Below, piece after piece: positions 9,004 through 62,248 of a stretch of DNA of 64,000 nucleotides. The notes under the pieces are model-generated. The model worked only from the letters and a program-made list of their open reading frames with translations. It was not told the origin of the DNA and did not search any database. Where the stretch lies: assembly GCF_947623445.1 (NCBI RefSeq), contig NC_135242.1, positions 8,556,001 to 8,620,000 on the forward strand, written 5' to 3'. Within the stretch, counting starts at the first letter, position 1, and the number at the start of each line of letters is the position of its first letter. Both the position numbers and the translations under genes were made by a program. The DNA comes from Clavelina lepadiformis. Its lineage: Eukaryota; Chordata; Ascidiacea; Aplousobranchia; Clavelinidae.

Positions 9004-9825
9004 TTACAAAATTGATTCTTCCTTGAAAAGTTTTTGTTTCCATTCTTCCGGGTCCAGGGGCGGCCCTGATCCAGCAAACATCGGTGGAAGCACTGATTTA
9101 TCAATGATTTCGTATAACATGGTGAAGTCCTGACCGAGAAGCCGGTAACGCTTTTTTATTTTTTCTTTCATGAAGGGTTGAGCCATTGCAAACACAATAT
9201 CGAATATTTTGGGCTCGTTGGTTGCGTTCAAGCTTTTCACTCGTAATGGCAATGAATCCTGAACTATTCCTACGAATCTTCGCGAAATGGATGGATTTAT
9301 TTGCTTTACGTAATCCATGCCAAGGTAGGCCAGATCTTGTATAACGGTAACTCCGTATACTTGAGTTTCTTCGTCCTCGACCATCTTTTCCATGGTTAGA
9401 AAAATAGATGCGTATAAATCAGTTAGATTATACGTACCTCCTATCCCTGGCCGACCAACTACTATCGTAGATCCATCCTTTGCTTTTCCTTTCAAGGGTA
9501 ATACTACACCTAAATCCAAGGTATCACTAATAAGTGCAGGATTTTTCACTTTGTCGAACACCTCAGGCCAGTCTGCGGTCTTTTTGTGGTAATTGGAAAT
9601 CATAGCTAATGCTCTTTCTTGATTAAATTTGCGAGCCCGTAAAAATCTCAGCAAAAACTCATCATCATCTCGTGCCAATTTCATGTCAGGATTTTGTTCT
9701 TCGAATGCTTTTTTCAGATCGTCAATTGCTTTTAATCTATCATCGTTGTCTTCAGGTTCGTTTAGTTCTTTAATAGCTTTCTCCAAAGTTTTTGGCGATA
9801 GCTTGCATTGGTACCTTTGAGCCAT
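9004..9825 (-). CDS. CRAL-TRIO lipid-transfer protein 1 (TTPA/TTPAL/RLBP1-like)
   Basis: A 273-residue intronless ORF. The N-terminal CRAL-TRIO-N helices end in the signature DDEFLLRFLRARKFNQERAL (about residues 54-73). The lipid-binding domain follows from about residue 100 to 250, with VIQDLAYLGMDYVKQINPS, the IVQDSLPLRVKSLNATNEP block and IFDIVFAMAQPFMKEKIKKR, all positions conserved in alpha-tocopherol transfer protein and cellular retinaldehyde-binding protein. Family members are cytosolic carriers of tocopherol, retinoids or phosphoinositides; the ligand here cannot be told. It is the last of three same-strand paralogues with intergenic gaps of about 1.5 and 2.1 kb. The start ATG at 9823-9825 lines up with the paralogues' starts (MAQRYQCKLS, MTERYKCTLS, MSARYQFSLS). 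Confidence 0.95.
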   Translation of the reverse strand: MAQRYQCKLSPKTLEKAIKELNEPEDNDDRLKAIDDLKKAFEEQNPDMKLARDDDEFLLRFLRARKFNQERALAMISNYHKKTADWPEVFDKVKNPALISDTLDLGVVLPLKGKAKDGSTIVVGRPGIGGTYNLTDLYASIFLTMEKMVEDEETQVYGVTVIQDLAYLGMDYVKQINPSISRRFVGIVQDSLPLRVKSLNATNEPKIFDIVFAMAQPFMKEKIKKRYRLLGQDFTMLYEIIDKSVLPPMFAGSGPPLDPEEWKQKLFKEESIL

Positions 9826-11351: not shown

Positions 11352-12173
11352 TCACAGTGCAGTACCTTCCTTCAATAATTTTACTTTCCAGCCTTGGACA
11401 TCAAGTTCAGCTCCCGAACCAGCAAACATAAATGGCAGTACAGATCGATCAACAGCATCGTAGAGCTTGCTGAAATCTGTCCCATGAAGCTGAAGCCTCT
11501 TTTTTGTTTTCTCTTTCAGAAATGGTTGGACAATTACAAAAAATGCGTCAAAAATTCTAGGCACATTTGTAATATTAACTTGCTTTAACCGCAACGGCAT
11601 GGCGTCCTGCAAGATTCCAAAAACACGCTTAGCAATGTCTGGGGTCATTTGCTTTACAAAATCGGCTCCAAAATAGGCCAAATCTTGAACAACAACTATT
11701 CCGTATATTTGAGTGCATTCATCTTCCAGTATTTTTTCCAAACTGGCAACCAAGGCAGCAAATGTATCGGTAATTGGTAGTTCGTTTGCCAATCCAAATC
11801 GAGCAACAACTACAGTGCATCCATTTTTTGCCTTTTCGGCCAGAGGAATGACCACACCTATATCCAATATATCTTTTAGGAGAACTGAGTTTCTGACTTT
11901 GTCGAATACTTCAGGCCACTGTTGCCTTTGTTGGTGAAAATTAGTTAGAATTGCAAGCGCTTTTTCCTGATCGAATTTCCTAGCTCTTAAAAACCTCAGA
12001 AGAAATCCGTCATCTTCATAGATGAGAGGAAGGTTTGGGTTGGCAGCATAGTAGTTTGCTTTCAGAAGATCAATAGCTGTCAAACGTTCCGAGTTGTTAG
12101 CTGGTTCATTCAGCTCCTTTACAGCCTTTGCAAGCAACTCACTTGACAAAGTACACTTGTATCGTTCGGTCAT
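11352..12173 (-). CDS. CRAL-TRIO lipid-transfer protein 2
   Basis: A 273-residue intronless ORF, the same length as gene 1 and collinear with it. Signature parts: EDDGFLLRFLRARKFDQEKA near residue 53, VVQDLAYFGADFVKQMTPD in the lipid-binding domain, ILQDAMPLRLKQVNITNVP, and FAGSGAELDVQGWKVKLLKE at the C terminus. It shares with gene 3 the words RQQWPEVFDK/RNKWPEVFDK and MPLRLKQ(V/I)NITN, so genes 2 and 3 look closer to each other than to gene 1 by eye. Role as for the family: cytosolic hydrophobic-ligand carrier, ligand unknown. ATG at 12171-12173. Confidence 0.95.
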   Translation of the reverse strand: MTERYKCTLSSELLAKAVKELNEPANNSERLTAIDLLKANYYAANPNLPLIYEDDGFLLRFLRARKFDQEKALAILTNFHQQRQQWPEVFDKVRNSVLLKDILDIGVVIPLAEKAKNGCTVVVARFGLANELPITDTFAALVASLEKILEDECTQIYGIVVVQDLAYFGADFVKQMTPDIAKRVFGILQDAMPLRLKQVNITNVPRIFDAFFVIVQPFLKEKTKKRLQLHGTDFSKLYDAVDRSVLPFMFAGSGAELDVQGWKVKLLKEGTAL

Positions 12174-14315: not shown

Positions 14316-15134
14316 CTATAAAGCAGTGCCCTCTTCTAAGATGGTATTCTTCCAACCTTCGGTATCTAATTCTGGACCAGAACCTGCAAACATGATAGGC
14401 AATACCGATCGATCGACTACTTGGTATAAAGCATCAAAATCTGTGCCATGTAGTCGAACCCGTTTCTTTAATTTATCTTTCAAAAATGGCTGAAAAATGA
14501 CAGAAATTACATCAAAGATTTTGGGCTCGTTTGTAATGTTTATCTGCTTAAGGCGAAGTGGCATCGCGTCCTGAATTATACCAACAGCTCGTTTAGCGAT
14601 GGCTGGTGACATTTGCTGAACGAGATCAATGCTAATGTAGGCCAGGTCTTCTATAAAAATTAACCCATGAATTTGCGTTTCTTCTTCATCTGATAACTTC
14701 TCTAAGCTCGCCATGACCAGAGCAATGGTGTCTGTAATTAGCCCTGGCACCAGTCCAGGTCGTACCACGAGCACCTTACAACCGTTTTTTGCTTTTCCCG
14801 ATAATGGCACTATTACCCCTGCATCCAGAAAATTCTTCAGAAGGATTGGGTTCTTTATCTTGTCAAATACTTCAGGCCATTTATTTCTTTGTTGGTGATA
14901 ATTGGTCAACATTTTCAAAGCTCGATCTTGATCAAATTTCCTTGCTCGAAGAAATTTCAACAAAAACTTATCGTCACTTCTTAAAAGTGGAAGACCTGGG
15001 TTTGTGGCTATATAATTTTCTTTCAATAAATCAATAGCTTTTAAACGCTCGGCGTCGTCATCTGGTTCATTAAGTTCTTCTACAGCTTTTGCCAGCAATT
15101 CTTTTGAAAGGGAAAACTGATATCTTGCTGACAT
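14316..15134 (-). CDS. CRAL-TRIO lipid-transfer protein 3
   Basis: Intronless ORF. The most upstream ATG (15147-15149) would add MLKHN, but the ATG at 15132-15134 aligns with the starts of the two paralogues and gives 272 residues, so it is preferred. CRAL-TRIO-N signature SDDKFLLKFLRARKFDQDRA; lipid-binding core with FIEDLAYISIDLVQQMSPA, IIQDAMPLRLKQINITNEP and VISVIFQPFLKDKLKKR; C terminus FAGSGPELDTEGWKNTILEE. Cytosolic carrier of a hydrophobic ligand by family. First gene of the array in the direction of transcription. Confidence 0.95.
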   Translation of the reverse strand: MSARYQFSLSKELLAKAVEELNEPDDDAERLKAIDLLKENYIATNPGLPLLRSDDKFLLKFLRARKFDQDRALKMLTNYHQQRNKWPEVFDKIKNPILLKNFLDAGVIVPLSGKAKNGCKVLVVRPGLVPGLITDTIALVMASLEKLSDEEETQIHGLIFIEDLAYISIDLVQQMSPAIAKRAVGIIQDAMPLRLKQINITNEPKIFDVISVIFQPFLKDKLKKRVRLHGTDFDALYQVVDRSVLPIMFAGSGPELDTEGWKNTILEEGTAL

Positions 15135-15149
15135 GTTATGTTTCAACAA

Positions 15150-45200: not shown

Positions 45201-48200
45201 TTATATCTTGCAAAGCTGCTTCTTGTTCCCTTTCCTGAGCCTCCTGGAATAACAAAGAAGTGTTGGTATATAGACTGCTAAAGCATGACCCTTCATCACA
45301 GAATGGATTAGAAATGAATTCAAAACAAGTCTTCTTCCTCACCCATCGTTTTTTCTCTTCCATCCTGCGAGATGCATTGTCATCAGCAAGCTTTTGAGCT
45401 TTCATTTTCTCAGAAATCTCTCTCTCCCTCGCAGCAACGATGTTCTTACGATTCTCCTCTGATCTGCGATAAAACAATACGTTTACTTCAAGTTGACAAG
45501 TTTTATTTAAAACTATAACTCAAAACAAAAATACTTTGTTTCACGTTCTTTCACTTCAACTGCTTCTTGTCGCCTTTTCTGTGCTTCTTTCTTTTTTTCT
45601 TCTGACCTTCTCGCATCTTCTTCTTGCTACGAAGAAGAGGATAATTTAGTCTTATTTAGTTAAGGGAGATGACTTGCAATTACTTCCATGAGATAATCTT
45701 ATTATGAAAGAAACATTCAGCTGATAAACTGTAAAAAAGCAAGTTATACACATTTAAGTTGTGATTTTACAAATAACATTTAAGAGCCAACTGTCTGGAA
45801 TGCTTAGATAAATAATGAACAAGCTTAGGTGGCAGAGTGCAATTAAACTGATTACTTGTCATATTTTGTTTTTCAAAACAATGCAAAACTTATACATTTT
45901 TTATTCTTGCATAACTCTCGAATGTTTCGAAATATGCATGAAATCATATTTATGCAGCAAACATTCACCAAAGAAAGAAAAAAGAATGGACACCATGCTA
46001 AAATCAATAAACAATCTATATATTATATATCCTTGTAAAAATGAAATTCTGGGTACCTGTACTTTCAACCAAAACTTTTCATTTCGAGAAGACTTAATTT
46101 CTTGTTCAGCATTGGTTCGTTTATAAACTGAACCCTGCAGCATGCAAGTTAACAAAAATAAAAGTAATGAATGTTTAGCAATTCACAACTTTACGAAATT
46201 AAATTTCTAGGAATCAATTTGTAAATACAATTTCATTTTTCAGATTTTAAAATTCAAGACATCTCGTTTGTAAATTACAAACAATAATAACGTGAAATCT
46301 TAGTGATTTTTTTCTAAAACTTCAATCAAGTAGTAATAGCCTAATTACGAAACAATTTGATTTTCAAAACTTAGATTTGAGGAAAAAGTTTTCATGTGTC
46401 AGTAAGAATAAAACCAATTAATAAACATAAAATAAACTTAAAAGTATGTATTTATACTTTAGTAAAAAAATACCAAAAAACAAAAAAAATTAAAAACGAA
46501 ATTGGATAGGCTGGGAAATAAGGTACTTGCCAAAAAATCATAATATTAATTGCAAGTATGAGTTCCCATACTGGACTTCCAACAACCAAAACTGATTTAT
46601 TTAAGCCGATTAATCCTGAAATGATTGGCAAAATCTTTAATAGAGGAAATCTTTATAAAATCTATAATTTAATTTATCAAAAAAACAAAAATGATAAATT
46701 AAGAAGCATGCAATAGCTACCCAAATAATACACCACAATAAACTTCACCCTAAAAATAGAATAATTTGTGTAATTTTTTTTTAGATACTGACTGAACTAC
46801 ATCAAGGTTTAGTTGAAGAACTTTCTTTTATAGATTAATTAATTATTATCCAAGTAGAGTATGTTCAGAACACCCAGGTATGACTTCCAAAGTATAAATA
46901 TACAAGACTGTTTACAGCAGGGGCGGGCAACATACGGCCCGCGACGGGATTTTGAGGGGCCCGCAGATAGTTTCCGGTCTTGCATGATAATGTGGCCTGC
47001 GGCCAAATTCTGCCGCAATCCCTGTATTGCGTCACTGAATAAGTCCAAGTTTGCCAACTTGAGAAAGATGGCCATGAATCTACTTGTTCTGTTCGGGTCT
47101 ACATACATTTGTGAGCAAACATTTTCGACCATGAACATTAATAAGACAAAGCTGCGTTCCAATCTATTCAGGAATCCGGCCCGCCAAGTACTTCATTTTC
47201 TCATATCAGGCCCGCCGACCGAAGAAGTTGCCCGCCCCTGGTTTAAAGTAACTATCACTGACTTGTAGTCACTAGATATTGTATGTACAGCAACGGTTCC
47301 TAAGACATTTGCATTTATTCATTCTTTTTAATTCTCACCATTATTACTCCAGGTTCATGACCACTACTAAGTTCAGACACAAACGTTTTTTGTATGAAAG
47401 TTCAAGCGCACACTGTGATAATCTATCTGGGTTTGTAGTGCTGAGCTGGCTAAGTAAGAATTGCAAGGTCTATAAAATCTTTTATACTGAAACTTTTAAA
47501 CTTTGAAGTCATTTAAGAAATTTATAAGCGGATAACAAACTGCACGACTAGCCTGTCAAGCTGAACACATTTTATGCTATTCTGCCAGCTAGTGTTGCAA
47601 GAAGGTTAAAATATGTGATGCAATCACTATCAAGATTTTTTTCAATATCTCAAAACTAGGAGCCGAAAAACATTTATCTTTTATGTAGGGTGCCGTAAGT
47701 CTAAAAAGGGTTAGGAAGCGCTGTACTAAAGGCTACAGTACTACATTCATGAGTTACAAACATATTATGCAGTAAAGAATGCATAAAGCACAACAGAACT
47801 ATTCTCAAAATACTAAGCAACTATAACATAATGATTAAATGTTAATGATCTGTATTGTCAAGCTGAAGATACAATACATGAACAACTTTAGTACCACAGT
47901 TTTTAATAATGTTATGTGAGATTTTTCAAAAAATATATTAATATTAATTATAATTATCTATACCAGTGATTCCCAACCGCAGCTCCAAGCTAGCCTTCTT
48001 GCGGCTCTCATTGACCCCTGAAAATCCCACAAAAAAATATAAAAAATCTATTTATAATAATTAGGGCGATTATTTTTTGACTTGTCAGTTGGAGTTGTAG
48101 TCAAGTTGGACATTAAATTGATTTGTGTTATTTTTCTTGTTAGTGTTGCTATTCGTTGGTACATGCTTTGGAAGAGATGGCTGCAATTGGTAGCCGAATA

Positions 48201-58632: not shown

Positions 58633-59268
58633 TAACTAGCTTCAATAATCGCAGAGTTGGAGCTCGGGCCGGGCTTTTCGGGTCGGGTTCGGGCTTGAGT
58701 TAAAAATATTTGGGCCAGATATCATACTCACACTCTGTCACATTAGCGTCGTAGTTTTACTTTCTGTACAGAAATGTGCATGCGCGCAGACTTCTAATAA
58801 CCTCCTGCAGGTAGCAATGCGCAACTTGGAAAAGGATGGCAGTCAAGAGTTGACATTAAAAGATAACTTTTATTCGTTTCGTAGCCTAAATTTAACTTTT
58901 GGAGCCGAATTCAGCTTGCAAATAAATTTTCGGATTCGGGCGGAGTTCGGGCTTGTATTTTCGTTTTCCAGCTACAAACATAAGGCTTGTTTACAACTCC
59001 GAATAAATGACAGTCACGCGGATTCGATGAGTCTTTTACGTGTGGCTTTTACGAAATTTTCTGCTCTGCAAAATCTTGATATCTAGTTAGCTGGGCTCTC
59101 ACCATAAACAATACAATACTACATGCGTGGAAACGTAAGCGACCACCGTGTTCGTGATATATATACGACTATATTGGACAAATTTACTCTTGTGTTTCTG
59201 ACGCGATCGCAAAAATTATGGGTATAAACAAATGAACATGTCTATCTAAACATAACCAACGTAACCAT
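58633..59268. other. Repeat-like intergenic stretch
   Basis: At 58660-58700 the sequence CGGGCCGGGCTTTTCGGG is followed by GGTTCGGGC. A related GGATTCGGGCGGAGTTCGGG occurs at 58932-58952, in the same orientation. Possibly a decayed DNA transposon. The ORF at 58817-59086 is not convincing. Confidence 0.4.
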
Positions 59269-59589
59269 TAGGATGTTTCATTTTTTCACCATTTTGGAAT
59301 TTAAAAAAGCTTGGGGTCTCCCTAGGCCGTATTTTGGGCACAATGAAAGAATCTGAATTTTTTTTTATTTATGACGTCATTTTGAGGTTGCACCCCCTTG
59401 TTGAAGTTTCGGTGGGGGTGCATTTTTGTGATTTGGCGATATCTTGGTAACCTATTGAGCTAGAGCTATGATCAAGGTCTCAAAAGATGCAGAACAGCTG
59501 GTTTCCCATAACCACTCAATACATTTTAACTGTATTTTTGCTCTAGAAAAAAAGTTATTTGAGAAAAACCGAAATTTTGACATATTTTG
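59269..59589 (+). repeat. Left terminal inverted repeat of the 59269-62048 element
   Basis: Starts TAGGATGTTTCATTTTTTCA and pairs with 61728-62048. It contains ATTTATGACGTCATTTTGAG (a TGACGTCA palindrome, the CRE-type octamer) and GCACCCCC/GGGGGTGC inverted words bracketing TTGTTGAAGTTTC, so each arm can itself fold. Confidence 0.93.
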
Positions 59590-59958
59590 TATGCAAATCA
59601 CAATGTAGTTCCCAACCGAACCTTTATTTTGCTTGGTGGTGATTGTAAACTTTTAGATTGGCCTTCGCCATGAAAAGTAAGCAAAATATTTTATATGTAA
59701 GCTATACAAACATATATCTAAGATAAACTTAAAATTACAGCAGTTTGTGTAAATAACTGCTACATCGGTAGTTCTGGAAAGATCGAGTAAACGATCATGT
59801 TAAACTGCGACTTTGATTTCTACTTTAGCGTTACTCTACCGTGTAAGAACAGTTCCATAAGCCAAATAACAAATTGTATTTTTTATTCAAATTTATTTTT
59901 ATTCTTTAAACTAACAACAAACAACAGTTCATGTTAACCCAAAAATTTGCTGTCTTCA

Positions 59959-61560
59959 CTAATTCTTATCCATATTGCACAGGTATGCTTGCAAACGAAA
60001 ATCAGTACGCCTCAAAGTAGATTTCTTTTCACGAATTTTCTCCTGCAGAATATTTTTCAACCATCCAATTTTCCTTTCATTGCACCTATTATTGTTTTCA
60101 ATGGCTTTCCAAAATTCTGGATCAACATCATCTGAAGCAATGCAAGGAGCTTGTTTGCTGTTCAATGTGAAAAATTGTTTTAAGCCAGCATTACGATTCA
60201 TAAGCAAGTTGTTTACATCGATGGATAGCGGCATGGAAGAGGATACTTTAACAGCCTCGATTGGGTAAGGTGGCACCTCAGAATAAACACTTAAAGCCAC
60301 ATTTTGGGGGTCAAGCCATTGTCCCGCATGATCCAAGTAATACTTCGTTACCATATCAGCAACATCAGGCTGGATTTCTCTATAAGCAAGAAGAAGGTTG
60401 CGTTGGAAAAGAGTAAGAAAAGGACCATCACAAGCTTTTGGATGCAAATGTATCATTACAAAAGAGGGTACATAGACTGAAACAATGTATGAAACAATTT
60501 TTTCTAATTTTCTTTTTTGATTTGTGGACATTTGTTGACTTCCAATGTTGAAAAGCAGAAGACGAAGGTAGCCGCTGGCAGTTGTTATCCATCGTGAGCG
60601 ACTTATGCTCTCCTGTTTGTATGTTAAAAGGTTTTTTAGATTTTCCGGAACATTCATCAGCAAATGAGAAGCTAACACTAACAAGCACAATTCGTCACTG
60701 CGGAAACTGTTGTCTACCATTTTTTCCTTTTTTTTGTCAGAAAACCATTGCGTTTTTTCTTTTATGTGCAGTGCTGCAATCTTTGTAATCGGAATAGTTA
60801 CAGTGTCACATGGAATTAAATCGTTTAGAACGGGCTTCTGTATTGTTTTTATAATATTCAGTAATGCACCATCTTCAAGTGCTCTGGGACCTTTTTTTCC
60901 ACCTTCTATGAAACGAATAACATGGGACAGATATATTTCATTGACATGAAATAAACATTCCAAGGTATGAATCCCATGACCAATGGTCAAACTAAAATAA
61001 TCTGCTAAGCGTTTATTTACTCCTGACTTCCTGCCTGTGTTAACAGCTGTAGTGTCCGCCATGACTGAGTACACCTTCTTTAGAGTATCACCGCATACCT
61101 CATCAATAATTGTGGAGGAAAGTATTTCCCCTGTAACTGATGTTCATTTGGGAAAGGTTTTGACACCAACAATTCTCTCACATTTTTTATTCTGGTCATC
61201 CAACAACTGACCAACAAAAACATACCGGTCAAGTGAGTTAATCACCCTACCATCATAACACAGTTGCATTGCACTACACGACTTTATCTCTAATTGGCAT
61301 CTTTCTAATGCTTTCATTCGTACTTTCTCTCGTCTGCGAAAAACAGTTGTTGGAGATGCTGCGATTTTTTCACCTGCCAAAGATCTCAGTTGGTCTGAGT
61401 GCTGGCGTATGGAAGTCATACGACGGTCAGCTAGCATGCACATCTCCTGATTTACTGAAAACGTATGAATTTTTTTATAGAATTTTCCACCAATTACTTT
61501 CTTGATTTCAAAATCTGGGTCTGATTTATGATCTCCTGAATCTGATTCCGAATCTGACAT
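59959..61560 (-). pseudogene. Divergent hAT-like transposase with one in-frame stop
   Basis: The frame runs from about 61758 to the TAG at 59959-59961. It is interrupted once by TGA at 61144-61146, with no frame change on either side. The likely start is the ATG at 61558-61560 (MSDSESDSGDHKSDP), giving about 533 codons. RNase H-like features in order: LCYDGRVINSLDRYVFVGQ (first acidic residue), VMADTTAVNTGRKSGVNKRL (second), then HTLECLFHVNEIYL. The last contains the C-x-x-H spacing seen at the same place in hAT transposases. The C-terminal 200 residues (PEFWKAIENNNRCNERKIGW) match nothing I know. I recall similar uncharacterised DTTA-NTG proteins in cnidarian and aphid genomes. No BED finger seen. 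A recent stop or, less likely, an unrecognised tiny intron explains the TGA. Confidence 0.75.
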
Positions 61561-61727
61561 GACGTTGAAATTTTGGATTCCAGACTTTTTTCTTATTTTA
61601 TCCGCAATAACATACTTTGAAGATAAGCTAGAAGATGAACAATTTTCAGTAGACTGCTCAGGGTAATATTTTCGCTTATGACGGTAACTTTTACTCAAAC
61701 AGTTGATCTGACATGTTGACTTGTAGG

Positions 61728-62048
61728 CAAAATATGTCAAAATTTTGGTTTTTCTCAAATAACTTTTTTTCTAGAGCGAAAATGCAATTAAAATGTATTG
61801 AGTGGTTATAGGAAACCAGCCATTCTGCATCTTTTGACACCTTGATTATGGCTCTAGCTCAATCGGTTACCAAGATATCGCCAAATTAGAAAAATGCACC
61901 CCCACTGAAACTTCAACAAGGGGGTGCAACCTCAAAATGACGTCATAAATAAAAAAAAATTCAGATTCTTTCATTGTGCCCAAAATACGGCCTAGGGAGA
62001 CCCCAAGCTTTTTTAAATTCCAAAATGGTGAAAAAATGAAACATCCTA
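61728..62048 (-). repeat. Right terminal inverted repeat of the 59269-62048 element
   Basis: Reverse complement of the left arm, ending TGAAACATCCTA. The transposase frame opens within its inner edge but the first ATG lies inside the unique region, so this arm probably contains the promoter and 5' leader of the transposase gene. Confidence 0.93.
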
Positions 62049-62248
62049 GTAACCATATTGATTGGCGCCCCAAATATAGATCTCAGCTGTCAAATGCAAC
62101 GTTGCTGAGCAATCAATAGGTTAAAAAACGGTATAACATCGTAGCTTTGACTAGAGACAAAAGCAGCAAATGCTGGATAGCGGAAACAGATGAAGCGGAA
62201 ACCGTTCCGCAATACATCTTAATCGATACGCTACTAGGTAGAAATACA

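Follow-up and report, generated by a model that had tools for sequence, protein, structure and literature searches.

The question raised by this locus is to which group of DNA transposons the element at positions 59269-62048 of the analyzed stretch of the Clavelina lepadiformis genome belongs, and in which state it is preserved there. The stretch (contig NC_135242.1, positions 8,556,001 to 8,620,000 of the forward strand; 64,000 nucleotides) is referred to as the window. An original prediction had regarded the element as a near-intact, hAT-related transposon. The copy in the window is, however, non-autonomous and internally deleted, and it belongs to a transposon family which was shown to have moved recently. 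With regard to its placement, we lean towards a cut-and-paste family that branches deeply within the hAT superfamily or just outside of it.

The features of the element are as follows (window coordinates, strand, description; TSD, target site duplication; TIR, terminal inverted repeat):

59261-59268, no strand: left TSD, GTAACCAT
59269-59606, plus: left TIR, 338 nt, 94% complementary to the right TIR, begins with TAGGATGTTTC
59962-61770, minus: remaining transposase frame of 603 codons, interrupted by one in-frame stop; terminal stop codon at 59959-59961
60076-60078, minus: Glu of NNRCNER, candidate third catalytic residue, without statistical support
60589-60594, minus: RW of SRWITTA, set against the RW of hATs, without statistical support
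60946-60957, minus: C-x-x-H (CLFH), 33 residues past the second Asp
61054-61056, minus: second putative catalytic Asp (DTTAVNTG), 66 residues past the first
61144-61146, minus: in-frame stop codon breaking the frame of the window copy
61252-61254, minus: first putative catalytic Asp (DGRV), residue 326 of the full-length protein
61686-61695, no strand: deletion junction with short A/T-rich microhomology, about 740 bp missing relative to the copies at loci L010, L013, L015, L018, L021 and L023
61711-62048, minus: right TIR, 338 nt
62049-62056, no strand: right TSD, GTAACCAT

A recently mobile transposon family

The predicted 8-bp TSD was found to be exact on both sides of the element, the outer tips of which read TAGGATGTTTC...GAAACATCCTA. 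The long inverted ends were likewise recovered, with a length of 338 nt instead of the 321 bp previously given. In the host genome (209 Mb) at least 161 pieces match the window element, and its terminal 28-mer occurs, with up to three mismatches, 110 times (57 + 53), compared to 0 + 0 occurrences of the backward control. As both the matching pieces and the termini are this numerous, the element is not a chance structure, and a mere chance inverted repeat is ruled out by the 110 family termini.

Forty copies, which were fetched from the strongest genome matches and are not a random sample, were read individually. Exact 8-bp TSDs were present in 25 of them, so that the prediction also held for other copies; four more copies matched at seven of eight positions and five at two to five of eight, and in the remaining six one or both recognizable ends were absent. 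The 25 exact TSDs represent 22 distinct sequences, with T at position 2 in 23 and A at position 7 in 24 of them. The pattern nTnnnnAn fits 22 of the 25, whereas the flanking DNA of eight copies gave a background of 9.5% (p = 5e-20). From the position counts the consensus RTRTAYAY was derived, which equals its own reverse complement.

Between the copy at locus L002 and the window copy only 3 of 2,780 bases differ, and the two are flanked by different TSDs. As these near-identical copies occupy different target sites, the movement was recent, and with copies being 0.1% apart the family is young in this host. Its mobility is shown by the target data together with the repeated families of derivatives described in the following section.

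The full-length element and its deleted derivatives

The assumption of a near-intact copy could not be upheld: about 740 bp and the first approximately 180 codons of the gene are missing from the window copy, which in addition carries an in-frame stop. At least six copies (the loci named at the deletion junction above) contain the additional stretch of about 740 bp following codon 27 of the window frame, which rules out that the 2.78-kb form is the complete element. In L010, this stretch supplies an ATG and about 180 codons reading on into the window frame. The L010 element, a full-length copy, measures 3,544 bp, and all 756 codons of its gene are open; in the window frame, codons 27-603 are the counterpart of residues 180-756 in the full-length protein. 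L010 is the only one of the six with a frame open throughout, as stops, shifts or losses break the frame in the other five.

The stretch is absent from the window copy and from L002 to L009 (2,770-2,780 bp), with short microhomology rich in A/T where the remaining parts meet. Such a deletion resembles the outcome of incomplete repair, by which it may have arisen. In the window copy the transposase frame reads as two minus-strand open reading frames (ORFs), 61758-61144 and 61074-59959, unlike in L002, where the 603-codon frame is open.

A second group of derivatives consists of miniatures, which comprise little beyond two joined ends. Fourteen of them (635-674 bp, about 0.67 kb) exhibit a mean pairwise identity of 97.8%; they derive from 16 miniature loci (L024-L039), two of which (L029 and L036) lack one recognizable end and were excluded from the identity comparison. 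All four of the 14 that were checked are end-to-end palindromes (94-96%). As these highly similar miniatures are made of two joined ends, it is suggested that the long ends by themselves are sufficient for mobilization.

Two smaller features were observed within the long ends. Each end contains ATGACGTCAT (59371-59380 and 61937-61946), which we take to be a palindrome resembling a cAMP-response element; in copies retaining it, a function as promoter or enhancer element is conceivable. The left end also contains a 9-bp hairpin, TGCACCCCC / GGGGGTGCA (59389-59422), the letters of which are the same in the right end.

The transposase and its putative catalytic core

The predicted blocks DGRV, DTTAVNTG (from 61056) and ECLFHVNE were indeed located in one gene frame on the minus strand, which is split by the in-frame stop in the window copy. 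In the full-length protein the corresponding positions are D326, D392 and C425-x-x-H, followed by R546-W and E718. Its N-terminal part is rich in cysteine (CKCKC...CSC) and also contains the motif DQRTTRKM.

Pfam scans of the window frame and of the 756-residue protein gave nothing above the cut-off (best match an asparaginase fragment, E 0.21), a PDB sequence search with the element protein nothing better than E 0.7, and a profile-profile comparison nothing beyond chance. A BLASTP comparison with six hATs from the same genome reached a best E of 3.1. The protein search of the host genome returned the present family and a few old remnants, the most diverged of those listed being 39% identical. 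AlphaFold gave no usable model, with a mean predicted local distance difference test score of 29.3 for the full-length protein and of 38.8 for its first 211 residues.

Scans reaching close relatives only were also performed on microbial and viral sequences. No relatives were among the 3, 5 and 0 stretches from IMG/VR or the 19 stretches from bacterial and archaeal genomes; the phage scan gave a single match at chance level (E 0.8), and the plasmid scan found nothing. A pattern scan of IMG/VR resulted in 21 matches, among which tblastn identified no relative (best E 0.2).

The D-D-CxxH block was compared to models built from transposases of the host genome itself. Against the model of eight hATs the block, which like all scored blocks was picked by eye around the motifs so that the test was not blind, scored 9.2 bits, a value reached by 5 of 20,000 shuffles and by none of 967 windows; the latter were cut from open frames of at least 120 codons in 21 viral-contig loci and in the window studied here, and some of them may not be genes. 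Against seven Mutator-like elements (MULEs) it scored 0.9 bits (a score attained by 620 of the shuffles and 24 of the windows) and against four P-type proteins -1.1 bits (6,899 and 120, respectively). True hATs that were left out scored 31-149 bits against the hAT model. The block thus appears weakly hAT-like.

The hAT model used eight of 14 fetched loci, leaving out L092 (long insert), L125 (by choice, as unusual), L126 (without the block) and L093, L121 and L127 (apparent near copies of L092, L096 and L094). For the MULE model seven of 13 loci were used, without L103 (poor fragment) and the apparent near copies L104, L106, L107, L113 and L115, and for the P model four of nine, without L099-L102 and L119 (apparent near copies of L098).

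Several observations limit the link with hAT. Cross scores between P and hAT reach 8.5 bits, which is near the 9.2 bits of the element. The RW region showed no hAT signal in the block comparison, and the C-terminal block scored only 1.0 bit against the hAT dimerization region, a value matched by 3,001 of 20,000 shuffles. Pfam found neither the hATC dimerization region (PF05699) in the element protein nor a BED zinc finger in its 756 residues, the latter position being taken by the Cys-rich CKCKC...CSC. Finally, the ends measure 338 nt, in contrast to the short TIRs of 10-25 bp described for hATs (PMC3942097). The predicted hAT relation is hence retained in part: it is backed by the 8-bp TSD, the targets with T2 and A7 and the weakly hAT-like D-D-CxxH block, and lacks hATC, the BED finger and short ends.

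Alternative explanations and proposed mechanism

The family might already bear a name, for example as a hAT subgroup in Repbase or under the poorly described superfamily Novosib, which we regard as unlikely. Among unannotated animal proteins there are some with blocks like CKC...DQR..RKM and D(G/T)TAVNTG, so that relatives are probably already present in sequence databases. Together with Repbase lying outside the search, this is the reason why a name may exist. The literature search, covering titles and the openings of abstracts, found no description of such an element. In Repbase a superfamily is delimited by convergence of PSI-BLAST at E < 0.005, according to the source consulted (PMC4455052).

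That the element is a divergent MULE appears less probable still. Long ends, duplications of 8-9 bp and a D-D-CxxH core would all fit, but the score against the MULE model is near chance and PF10551 was not matched in the Pfam scans of the element protein. The 25 exact TSDs are, moreover, all 8 bp long (9-bp duplications were not sought in the other 15 copies), and their strong preference for T2 and A7 differs from Muta1, which is described as having no apparent preference (PMC5225508). A member of the P superfamily is highly improbable, as, although Galileo proves that long foldback-like ends, with TSDs of 7 and rarely 8 bp in a palindromic target, are possible there (PMC4168063) and P-type genes are common in the host genome (82 matches to PF21787), the score against the P model is at chance, no THAP or TNP-like domains were matched by Pfam, and the element has C-x-x-H where the four P proteins used have D-x-x-H.

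For the favored cut-and-paste family close to hAT, the following mechanism can be proposed. The autonomous form would be about 3.5 kb long with one transposase gene, a single open frame of 756 codons. Judged from its motifs, the transposase may comprise an N-terminal Cys-rich, possibly DNA-binding domain followed by a D-D-CxxH...E catalytic core, presumably with an RNase H fold. After binding both ends of about 0.33 kb it would excise the element, and insertion would take place at a staggered 8-bp site matching RTRTAYAY (nTnnnnAn). Derivatives retaining both ends, which are the form of about 2.78 kb without the N-terminal domain and the joined ends of about 0.67 kb, would be moved in trans.

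Other features of the window and the host genome

An ordinary hAT transposase fragment is located at 46861-47268 (PF05699, E 6e-4, 19.9 bits, below the Pfam cut-off of 21.4) and provides a canonical contrast within the same window. An ORF at 347-2557 contains a SANTA domain (PF09133, E 1.8e-12), and we assume it to be an exon of a Mis18-binding/KNL2-like centromere protein. On the minus strand a tandem trio of similar ORFs (273-277 aa) was observed at 9004-9825, 11352-12173 and 14316-15149; the first, which was the only one scanned, exhibits CRAL-TRIO domains (E 6e-17).

Canonical hATs are numerous in the host genome, with all 150 scored of 666 candidates matching PF05699. MULEs gave 141 matches among 150 scored of 192, and P-type sequences 82 among 112. 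As sequences of all three groups are abundant and some of them have long open frames, several transposon families of this host may be recently active.

Comparison with known superfamilies

The outer end of the element starts with TAGG, as does that of Ac. With hATs of the Ac type (Hermes, hobo, Ac) the present family shares the 8-bp TSD and the order D-D-CxxH; the spacing from the second Asp to the Cys is 33 residues, compared to 28-33 in four of five hATs measured from the same genome, while the remaining one contains an insert and has 61. The target preference is the same as in the hAT element Hermes, for which the pattern nTnnnnAn (PMC10368747) and a strong bias for T2 and A7 (PMC8721813) were published. 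On the other hand, the distance from CxxH to RW is 120 residues, compared to 57-64 in six hATs, and no similarity to hATs is detectable over the whole protein. The long ends do not contradict a kinship, as foldback-like ends also occur in Galileo, an element of the P superfamily (PMC4168063), and the hAT element Tol2 is reported to need its terminal 200 and 150 bp, far more than its TIR (PMC10368747).

MULEs are described as having long ends, duplications of 8-10 bp and a CH motif (PMC5225508), and Muta1, with ends of more than 100 bp, TSDs of 8-9 bp and C-x-x-H, resembles the present family in all of these respects; the differences are the missing MULE domain, the 8-bp TSD with its target preference and the near-chance block score. 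Galileo likewise shares the long foldback-like ends, the palindromic target and a TSD of 7-8 bp, and is set apart by the THAP and P-type domains, which were not found in the element, and by the block score at chance.

As short TIRs and hATC, which define hATs, and the BED finger, which is usual for them, were not found, the family is not classed as a member of hAT. It nevertheless probably works like hAT and is related to it. A bolder and rather tentative possibility is that the family represents a superfamily of cut-and-paste transposons in animals, sister to hAT and hitherto undescribed. It would share with hAT the staggered cut at nTnnnnAn targets as well as the catalytic core in its first half, and would have its own N-terminal Cys-rich domain and C-terminus in place of BED and hATC and symmetric ends of about 0.33 kb. 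As a mere inventory entry the family is ordinary. If relatives confirm its placement, however, the target choice and the catalytic half of hAT would be separable from the BED finger, the hATC interface and the short ends, and one full-length representative of a family that moved recently would be available for testing this separability.
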